A DNA stretch of 64,000 nucleotides, taken from Ignavibacteria bacterium. GTDB lineage: Bacteria > Bacteroidota > Ignavibacteria > Tepidaquicellales > Tepidaquicellaceae. Of the stretch, positions 39,321 to 42,054 are shown piece by piece (within the stretch, counting starts at the first letter, position 1; the number at the start of each line of letters is the position of its first letter). The stretch covers positions 1-64,000 of the forward strand of contig JAEUSI010000003.1 in assembly GCA_016788375.1 (NCBI GenBank), read 5' to 3'. The translations under genes were made by a program, and so were the position numbers. Below the pieces are notes generated by a model, which did no database searches, had not been told where the DNA came from, and was given only the letters and a program-made list of their open reading frames with translations.

Positions 39321-40766
39321 ATGGGAAATGAAACTGAAATTCTCGAAAAAGTAACATCCGGAGACTATAAATACGGATTTTATACGGATGTTGAAATGGA
39401 TATTGCGCCGAAAGGGCTGAATGAAGAAATCATTAAAATGATTTCTTTAAAGAAACATGAAAACGAAAAAATGCTTGAATGGAGACTGAAAGCATACAAA
39501 ATCTGGCTGGAAATGAAAGAGCCGAAATGGCCGAATGTTCATTATCCTCCGATTGATTACAATGAAATTATATACTACGCTGCGCCGACACATAAGAAAA
39601 AACTTAACAGCCTTGACGATCTTGATCCGGAAATTAAGAGAACATATGAAAAGCTCGGAATTCCTCTGGAAGAGCAGCTTATACTTGCCGGAGTTGCAGT
39701 AGATGCTGTAATGGACAGTGTATCAGTTGCGACTACTTACAAGGAAAAGCTGGGCGAACTCGGAATAATTTTCTGTTCAATGAGCGAAGCCATTAAAGAT
39801 CATCCGGAACTTGTAAAAAAATATCTCGGCAGTGTCGTTCCGCAGACGGATAATTTTTTTGCAGCACTGAATTCTGCCGTATTTACGGACGGATCGTTCG
39901 TTTACATTCCAAAAGGTGTCAGATGTCCGATGGAACTTTCCACATATTTCAGGATAAACGCCGAAAACACGGGACAGTTTGAAAGAACGCTGATAGTTGC
40001 CGATGTAGGCAGTTATGTCAGTTACCTTGAAGGATGCACAGCTCCGATGAGAGACGAGAATCAGCTTCATGCCGCGGTAGTTGAACTTATTGCGCTTGAA
40101 AATGCGGAGATAAAATATTCTACTGTACAGAACTGGTATCCTGGCGACAAGGACGGCAAAGGCGGAATTTATAACTTTGTAACCAAGAGAGGTATATGTG
40201 CGGGAAATAATTCCAAGATTTCCTGGACACAGGTTGAAACAGGTTCAGCTATTACGTGGAAGTATCCGAGTGTGATACTTAAAGGAGACAATTCAATCGG
40301 TGAATTTTATTCGGTTGCGCTTACGAACAATATGCAGCAGGCAGATACGGGAACAAAGATGATGCACATAGGTAAGAATACAAAAAGCAGAATTGTATCG
40401 AAGGGAATTTCGGCCGGAAAAAGTCAGAACAGTTACAGAGGTCTCGTGCAGGTAAGCAAAAGAGCCGAAAATGCTAGAAACTTTTCTCAGTGTGATTCAC
40501 TTCTGATGGGTGATAAATGCGGTGCGCATACATTCCCTTATTTTGAAATCAAAAACAATTCCGCGCATGTAGAGCATGAAGCCACTACATCAAAGATCGG
40601 TGAAGACATAATGTTTTACTGCAATCAGAGAGGTATTTCGGAAGAGGACGCAGTTGCTCTGATAGTGAACGGATATGCGAAGGAAGTTCTGAATCAGCTT
40701 CCGATGGAATTTGCCGTAGAGGCGCAGAAGCTGCTTGCAATTTCACTTGAGGGAAGCGTGGGGTAG
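39321..40766 (+). CDS. sufB: Fe-S cluster assembly scaffold protein SufB
   Basis: Core scaffold of the SufBCD Fe-S assembly complex in the cytoplasm. Length (481) is normal. Conserved stretches include [47 protein letters not shown], the S-Y-R-G-L-V-Q region, [11 protein letters not shown], and [13 protein letters not shown] near the C-terminus, which holds the acceptor Cys and His positions. The protein ends normally, 5 nt before the left inverted repeat of the inserted element. It is the first gene of the suf operon, preceded by a palindrome. Confidence 0.98.
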
Positions 40767-40771
40767 CTTTC

Positions 40772-40796
40772 ACCACAAAGACACCAAGGCACAAAG
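40772..40796 (+). repeat. Left inverted repeat (25 bp) of the GxxExxY element
   Basis: It begins ACCACAAAG and ends GCACAAAG. It matches the reverse complement of 41240-41264 at 22 of 25 positions. Inside, three tandem octamers of the form CACNAAGR occupy 40774-40797. It starts 5 nt after the sufB stop codon. Confidence 0.9.
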
Positions 40797-40815
40797 AAAA
40801 ACAATATTAATTCAT

Positions 40816-41211
40816 ATGAATAATTTTAAGGAACTATCAAATGATGAAGAAAGGATTGGGAAAGAGATTGTTGATTGTGCTTATAAAGTTCATTCTAACT
40901 TAGGTCCGGGATTGCTTGAGAAAATTTATGAAACGTGTTTCTGCCATGAACTCAAAAAGAAGAGTTTAAAGTTTTATTCACAAGTTAGTATTCCTATCAG
41001 ATATGATGGTTTGATTTTCGATGAAGGTTTTAGAATTGATGTTTTGATTGAAGACAAAGTAATTTGTGAATTGAAAGCGGTAAAAGAAATCAATCCTGTT
41101 TATGAAGCACAGGTATTGACCTATTTGAAATTTACAAATAAAAGACTTGGGTTTTTAATCAATTTTAATGTTCCTTTGATCAAAAACGGAATTAAAAGAA
41201 TCATTTTATAA
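40816..41211 (+). CDS. GxxExxY family protein (PD-(D/E)XK nuclease-like)
   Basis: Small protein of 131 residues. The family name motif is G-L-L-E-K-I-Y (32-38). A PD-(D/E)XK-type core follows: R-I-D-V-L-I (Asp75), C-E-L-K (Glu85, Lys87) and E-A-Q-V-L-T-Y-L-K with Gln99. The full set of nuclease-like positions is intact. No function is established for the family. The ATG chosen gives the usual family N-terminus; an upstream start would overlap sufB and read through the inverted repeat. The gene lies in the same direction as suf and is probably carried on its transcript. Confidence 0.9.
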   Translation: MNNFKELSNDEERIGKEIVDCAYKVHSNLGPGLLEKIYETCFCHELKKKSLKFYSQVSIPIRYDGLIFDEGFRIDVLIEDKVICELKAVKEINPVYEAQVLTYLKFTNKRLGFLINFNVPLIKNGIKRIIL

Positions 41212-41239
41212 ATTAATTACTGAGGACGGATATACAAAA

Positions 41240-41264
41240 CTTTGTGTCTTCGTGCCTTTGTGGT
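41240..41264 (-). repeat. Right inverted repeat (25 bp) of the GxxExxY element
   Basis: It reads CTTTGTGTC to CTTTGTGGT on the plus strand, the inverse of 40772-40796 with three mismatches. It ends 16 nt before the sufC ATG. Three tandem octamers of the CACNAAGR type are seen on the complement. Confidence 0.9.
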
Positions 41265-41280
41265 AAAAATTGAAATAATT

Positions 41281-42054
41281 ATGTTAACAATAAAAAACTT
41301 AAAAGCAAAAATAGCAACAGAAGAAGGCGAAAAGGAAATTCTTAAGGGAATTGATCTGAAAGTAAACGCCGGTGAAATACATGCAATCATGGGACCTAAC
41401 GGTTCGGGTAAAAGCACGCTGGCTTCCGTGCTGACAGGCAGGGAAGGCTATGAAGTTACCGAAGGCGAAGTAATATTTGAAAAAAAGAATCTTCTTGATG
41501 AATCTCCCGAAGACAGGGCGAGACTCGGAATATTTCTTGCATTTCAGTATCCGGTTGAAATTCCCGGCGTATCAAACACTAACTTCCTTAAAACCGCAAT
41601 CAATGAAATCAGAAAGTCAAAAGGCGAAGAACCGATGAGTTCGGTTGATTTCCTTAAACTTATAAAGGAAAAAGCAAAGCTTGTCGGACTCGATCCTCAG
41701 ATGATAAGTCGTTATGTCAACGTAGGATTTTCCGGCGGTGAAAAAAAGCGGAATGAAATTTTTCAGCTTGCAATGCTGAATCCGAAGCTGTCGATTCTTG
41801 ACGAAACGGATTCCGGGCTTGATATAGACGCGCTCAGAACCGTCGCAGACGGAGTGAACAAGCTCAGGACAAAAGACAATGCATTTATTGTAATAACTCA
41901 TTATCAGAGACTCCTTGATTACATTGTTCCGGATTTTGTACACGTAATGTACGACGGTAAAATCGTGAAGTCGGGTGACAAGGATCTTGCGCTTCATCTT
42001 GAAGAACACGGCTATGACTGGATTACAAATGATAAAAACGCAGTCACCGTTTAA
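41281..42054 (+). CDS. sufC: Fe-S cluster assembly ATPase SufC
   Basis: ABC-type ATPase subunit of SufBCD; cytoplasmic, not a transporter. Walker A is G-P-N-G-S-G-K-S-T (38-46), the signature is F-S-G-G-E-K-K-R-N-E (about 150-159) and Walker B is L-S-I-L-D-E-T-D-S-G-L-D, with the S-G-L-D-I-D of SufC. The ATG used gives 257 residues and the standard N-terminus; starts 39 nt upstream fall within the right inverted repeat. The GxxExxY element separates it from sufB. It lies 22 nt upstream of sufD. Confidence 0.98.
   Translation: MLTIKNLKAKIATEEGEKEILKGIDLKVNAGEIHAIMGPNGSGKSTLASVLTGREGYEVTEGEVIFEKKNLLDESPEDRARLGIFLAFQYPVEIPGVSNTNFLKTAINEIRKSKGEEPMSSVDFLKLIKEKAKLVGLDPQMISRYVNVGFSGGEKKRNEIFQLAMLNPKLSILDETDSGLDIDALRTVADGVNKLRTKDNAFIVITHYQRLLDYIVPDFVHVMYDGKIVKSGDKDLALHLEEHGYDWITNDKNAVTV

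Follow-up and report, generated by a model that had tools for sequence, protein, structure and literature searches.

The sufB-sufC element

We have identified a gene for a 131-residue GxxExxY protein enclosed by inverted arrays of octamers in the gap between sufB and sufC. The features of the locus, numbered in the window (the whole 64-kb stretch of DNA that was analysed), are as follows.

39321..40766, plus strand: sufB, the upstream neighbour; intact, with its stop 5 nt ahead of the left arm
40772..40796, plus strand: left arm, ACCACAAAG ACACCAAG GCACAAAG; three inward-reading CACNAAGR octamers
40816..41211 including the stop (40816-41208 without it), plus strand: GxxExxY gene, 131 aa; predicted PD-(D/E)XK fold of the Cas4/RecB/lambda-exonuclease branch, active-site residues intact
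41240..41264, minus strand: right arm, inverted; ACCACAAAG GCACGAAG ACACAAAG as read on the minus strand, again CACNAAGR octamers
41281..42054, plus strand: sufC, the downstream neighbour; intact, with its ATG 16 nt past the right arm

As inverted repeats, the two 25-bp arms are identical at 22 of 25 positions, a score that 4,872 random placements elsewhere in the window never reach. The array pattern CACNAAGRCACNAAGRCACNAAG, searched with 3 mismatches allowed, gave two matches in the 64 kb against 0.01 expected; these are the two arms, and the pattern is absent elsewhere in the window. The sequence-only reading of this DNA had described a GxxExxY gene inside 25-bp inverted octamer repeats, in a unit that fits the gap without harm to either suf gene, and both descriptions are borne out. 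It had also seen neither a transposase nor a target duplication, and this too stands. GxxExxY is the sole gene between the arms, where no transposase of the kind that would mark a classical DNA transposon was found, and the single Y1 transposase gene of the genome has no octamers inside 1.5 kb. A target duplication was sought at three junctions; the pairs of occupied and empty sites are too diverged to fix the ends, and none was definable. Nor did the junctions at map and bioF-bioD reveal a transposition event or a precise empty site.

The GxxExxY protein is a predicted nuclease

We know of no established function for the GxxExxY family. The protein in the window belongs to it by both profile searches: TIGR04256 matched with an E-value of 1.4e-43 (148 bits; curated cut-off 35), and PF13366 (PDDEXK_3) with 3.8e-42 (143.8 bits; curated cut-off 22). 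Residues E35, D75, E85, K87, Q99 and Y103 are unchanged throughout an alignment of 30 GxxExxY homologues; the PD-(D/E)XK-like residues D75, E85 and K87, previously read as intact, are thus invariant. A residue set of E, D, ExK and QxxxY is known from RecB- and Cas4-type nucleases. The AlphaFold2 model of the window protein has a mean pLDDT of 94.7. Among PDB structures, Foldseek placed it closest to Cas4 SSO0001, lambda exonuclease and LHK-Exo; the E-values are weak (4.9e-3 at best), but the probabilities are 0.87-0.99. Sequence searches returned no homologue with a solved structure. PHROGs gave only a weak CRISPR-associated match, and a defence-system label was rejected because the protein matches no defence family in PADLOC. 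From the conserved residues and the structural model we infer that GxxExxY is a PD-(D/E)XK nuclease of the RecB/Cas4-like branch, with predicted nuclease activity.

Inverted arms are a general feature of GxxExxY loci

The GxxExxY gene is carried by 101 of 198 sampled Bacteroidota genomes, and the family is present in many phyla. A GTDB-wide set of 80 loci from at least 15 phyla was assembled from proteins with the LG(P/N)G(L/F)LE motif, many of the records being metagenome bins, and the 180-nt flanks were scored against a within-locus null. A flanking inverted repeat exceeded the 99th percentile of this null at 65 of the 80 loci and the 95th at 69; among the Bacteroidota loci the corresponding counts were 27 and 28 of 32. 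The arms consist of C[AG]C-N-[AG]AG arrays, in which the start-to-start spacing of units is mostly 8-10 nt. The sites face inward on both sides, with 722 RAG-type sites in the sense and 166 in the antisense orientation in the flanks of 151 loci.

Gene pairs that host the unit beyond suf include map, bio, fab, radA and others, and plasmid records supplied examples at fabD-fabG and at radA-FAD protein. At the 44 GTDB-wide loci that have at least two recognisable units in each arm, the first site lies a median of 14.5 nt past the same-strand upstream stop, and the last site a median of 13 nt ahead of the same-strand downstream start. Both neighbours run in the direction of the GxxExxY gene at 46 loci and both against it at 4. 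Ordinary genes also tend toward co-orientation with their neighbours; the bias is consistent with read-through expression of GxxExxY.

A further copy, in G193 (L224), has CATNTAAG-type arms and lies in an apparent suf cluster, where by eye it adjoins a DUF59/SufT-like gene and a sufE-like gene.

Just 7 GxxExxY relatives turned up in 2.9 million viral contigs, for which reason phage was rejected as a vehicle; most of the seven are bracketed by inverted arms of short units. Two of these contigs (L312 and L313) carry the gene between 56-nt inverted arms that match almost perfectly and consist of ACTTAAAATT-type units, and their neighbouring ORFs look by eye like those of a gut Bacteroidales mobile element, not a phage.

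Protein clade matches site type

A second protein clade, with the motif LG[YKFN]G[FHQ].E, has C[AG]C-N-[AG]AT arrays. When the RAG/RAT label is mapped onto a tree of 149 proteins, near-copies included, it requires 5 changes, against a mean of 19 when shuffled, and none of 500 shuffles was as low; the RAG and RAT clades are separated by supported branches. Once near-copies are removed, the protein tree also groups members of the RAG set by dialect, CAC/CGC and AAG/GAG (17 changes versus ~28). The two other GxxExxY genes of the genome from which the window comes (L032 and L033) fall in the second clade and lack RAG octamers; repeats made of other short units occupy their flanks.

Phylum labels change 33 times over the 69 rows and 15 phyla of the protein tree. 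This distribution of the sequences indicates repeated horizontal transfer between phyla, to which binning errors may contribute.

Occupied, empty and decayed gaps

The sufB-sufC element is also present in G001, of the same genus, and in family members of other genera (G002, G017 and G022); in G022, CTC replaces CAC in both arms. In many other family members the gap is empty and 33-67 nt long, and G013, a congener of G022, retains the right arm alone. An empty site in close relatives, which the sequence-only reading had named as the comparison to make, is therefore seen, together with a one-arm remnant, and it is not the case that relatives all carry the gene without repeats. In a sister family (L064-L066) the sufB-sufC gap holds an unrelated 150-aa ORF without octamers, of DinB type by eye.

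Turnover was followed more closely between map, the methionine aminopeptidase gene, and a methyltransferase gene in one densely sampled genus. Depending on the species, this gap is empty at 22-30 nt, is 2 nt long, or is occupied by a type I element or by a type II element bearing the type II motif; gene-less remnants occur in L282 and L292. At bioF-bioD, type II elements are found, as are hairpins without a gene and single arms. In two species with a map-methyltransferase gap of 1.9 kb (L260 and L266), a left octamer arm is followed by genes for an ATPase and a small protein where relatives have GxxExxY; these two genes resemble HEC-02/PD-T4-4 defence genes.

The arms as recognition sites or as a stem

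Two arms of the same element score higher against each other than against arms from other elements of that motif (medians of 18.25 and 9.0). The R positions agree at 89% and 97% inside elements, as opposed to 71% and 82% between elements, and the N position agrees at 62% within and 60% between elements. Among orthologous type I copies at one locus, in species pairs at a near-saturated synonymous divergence (pS) of ~0.57, the C.C..AG core differs by 1.2%, while R differs by 22%, N by 37% and the spacers by 23%. Because N is not tied to its partner base and the core is fixed, these comparisons of sequence favour putative recognition of the arms over hairpin pairing as what keeps them. Given the inverted orientation of the arms, it would be simpler to suppose that double-stranded DNA is what is recognised.

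The same data bear on an RNA-level explanation, in which the arms of the transcript fold into a stem that RNase III or the GxxExxY protein cuts, so that the insertion is spliced out or insulated and thereby tolerated. The architecture does resemble that of the 23S rRNA intervening sequence (IVS) (PMC4990558), the arms of the suf element pair in a predicted RNA fold, and the gene is mostly sense to its neighbours. Against this stand the N positions, which do not match from one arm to the other and vary freely around a fixed unit core, and the fold of the whole suf element, which is unexceptional (z = -1.35); on these grounds constraint as an RNA stem was rejected. Rfam returned no match for the suf element, and a known RNA was likewise rejected. 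We regard the RNA-level explanation as very unlikely.

Gene-less arrays and the genome-level link

The repeats occur both paired around GxxExxY genes and as hairpins without a gene. A search of the window's own genome for the repeat with and without GxxExxY, also proposed in the sequence-only reading, found about ten gene-less octamer hairpins (among them L001, L003, L005, L006, L011, L012 and L014). Several sit within a longer MITE-like repeat, with outer ends like GAGAGTGTCTNAA...TTGAGACACTCTC.

Of the 101 Bacteroidota genomes that have the gene, 49 contain triple-site arrays, as do 3 of the 97 that lack it (Fisher p = 1.5e-14), a test that is partly trivial in that the gene's own arms are counted and the genomes are related. 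Two array pairs whose arms lie 400-600 nt apart (L295 and L296) were fetched blind to the gene, and both enclose GxxExxY.

These hairpins raise the question of whether GxxExxY is a passenger, caught between two MITE- or REPIN-like octamer hairpins that another enzyme moves in trans. The gene-less hairpins of the genome, several of them in a longer repeat, would fit such an origin, as would genomes richer in arrays than in genes, such as G079 with 99 array hits and 4 GxxExxY genes. A chance enclosure is harder to reconcile with the pairing of the same family and the same motif in at least 15 phyla, with a second clade that has a different motif, with the greater likeness of arms within an element, and with the partly trivial excess of arrays in genomes that have the gene. 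The sole Y1 transposase of the genome also lies away from the octamers. We consider a passenger origin improbable.

Selection and inheritance

The GxxExxY gene is under strong purifying selection, with a median dN/dS of 0.08 at suf and of 0.06 for both type I and type II at map. At the map locus, pS is 0.57 for GxxExxY and 0.52 and 0.56 for the flanking genes; this equal synonymous divergence points to vertical inheritance once the element has been inserted. In the nearest pair at suf, pN is lower for GxxExxY (0.058) than for sufC (0.075). Between G002 and G017 (L041 and L043), the whole suf gap is 92% identical and the flanks are 85-88% identical, which suggests that the element alone was exchanged more recently than its flanks.

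Nothing speaks more strongly against seeing the unit as merely selfish than this constraint, which would be unusual for a purely selfish gene unless the gene keeps re-homing or is useful. The proposal in the sequence-only reading of a minimal selfish element in intergenic gaps thus holds in part. The unit of nuclease plus repeats fits, in that the pairing is general, empty junctions exist and the core is conserved as sequence. The word "selfish" is called into question by a gene that is strongly constrained and inherited with its neighbours at fixed loci, and the unit may instead be host-useful or self-regulating.

In the latter case, the arrays would be operators for GxxExxY, the nuclease would be useful to the host, for example in defence or repair, and movement would be occasional and passive. 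Purifying selection and vertical inheritance at fixed loci are what such a module predicts, and the site core is conserved regardless of pairing. The two species that keep a left arm at the map junction beside an HEC-02/PD-T4-4-like two-gene system also speak for it. An operator, however, need not flank its gene as a pair of inverted copies with equally spaced units, array hairpins stand without a gene in many places, and GxxExxY itself has no PADLOC family. Moreover, the same gap has been lost and refilled repeatedly, at map and at bioF-bioD. A host module appears to us rather unlikely as the main explanation.

A proposed compact mobile element

The reading that we prefer, and hold at somewhat better than even confidence from the sequence comparisons, is that of a compact mobile element with two components: a gene for a small Cas4/RecB-like nuclease, and a pair of inverted arrays of the putative site of that nuclease. 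It is favoured because of the linkage of gene and arrays, the conserved core, the match of protein clade to site, the turnover of gaps, the spread across phyla and the predicted fold. In such an element the nuclease, most likely as an oligomer, would recognise the short site in both arrays. The unit has no obvious promoter or second gene and lies in a gap between genes, mostly in the direction of its neighbours, so that its expression would probably be by read-through. Bound to the arrays, the nuclease would cut the DNA there, close by or at the target, and the unit would reach a new gap through repair or recombination by the host. An inserted copy may then be passed on over long periods, its gene and sites unharmed, before it erodes to a hairpin that lacks the gene, to a single arm or to nothing; the vacated gap could be refilled by another element.

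More broadly, we see about an even chance that GxxExxY genes represent a new class of minimal, transposase-free mobile elements across much of bacterial diversity. Members would combine a Cas4-fold nuclease with inverted octamers that are its putative own sites (C[AG]C-N-[AG]AG or C[AG]C-N-[AG]AT by clade), fill gaps, be expressed by read-through and leave gene-less hairpins. If the protein binds and cuts CRCNRAG arrays and each clade prefers its own word, much of the population of CTTTGTG/CTCTGTG-type hairpins in bacterial intergenic DNA would be explained, and a transposase-free kind of element would be added beside IVS and REP systems. Its association with a defined DNA word also gives the GxxExxY family a first testable role.

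Comparison with known systems

The protein shares with Cas4, RecB and lambda exonuclease the predicted fold and the conserved E, D, ExK and QxxxY residues, and differs in being a minimal domain of ~115 residues. Cas4 has iron-sulphur-cluster cysteines, whereas the alignment of 30 GxxExxY homologues has no invariant cysteines. Unlike Cas4 and lambda exonuclease, the window protein has no CRISPR or recombination partner among the adjoining genes.

Homing endonuclease genes, including PD-(D/E)XK types, are likewise small nuclease genes with patchy presence and with occupied, empty and decayed states at one orthologous site. The GxxExxY unit differs in having no intron or intein, in carrying its own putative sites in inverted arrays and in using many unrelated insertion sites, known here from presence and absence and from remnants.

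Like REP/REPIN-RAYT systems and MITEs, the octamer hairpins are short, imperfect intergenic palindromes with many gene-less copies. REP/REPIN-RAYT systems are linked to a Y1 transposase, whereas the GxxExxY repeats have no linked Y1 gene and hold a PD-(D/E)XK gene inside the repeat pair; a REP/RAYT origin was rejected on the position of the genome's lone Y1 gene.

The Coxiella 23S rRNA IVS encodes S23p and has terminal inverted repeats, with tandem heptamers in its 5' arm (PMC4990558). Like the GxxExxY unit, 23S rRNA IVSs are small elements of ~0.4-0.5 kb in which terminal inverted repeats flank a single small ORF with no established function. The IVS lies in rRNA and encodes S23p, a four-helix IVP, whereas the unit described here lies between sufB and sufC and encodes a predicted nuclease fold; the near-perfect stem of the IVS also contrasts with GxxExxY arms that differ in their units and are conserved as unit sequence. 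Genes of the four-helix IVP/S23 family (PF05635) that lie outside rRNA (L034-L036 and L098-L127) have inverted arrays of 7-10-nt units, unlike the GxxExxY octamers, and 24 of 33 such loci exceed the 95th percentile of the within-locus null (16 of 33 the 99th). The four-helix family may share an architectural group with GxxExxY units.

In the open-access literature searched, no paper that names GxxExxY gives an account of these repeats, and searches for the repeat sequences and for IVS-type elements brought up no description of the unit. The unit may be of a new kind, since no known kind passed its defining tests and no description turned up in open-access papers. By the features tested, it is outside the IVS, REP/RAYT, transposon and known defence families, and the IVS is its architectural precedent.
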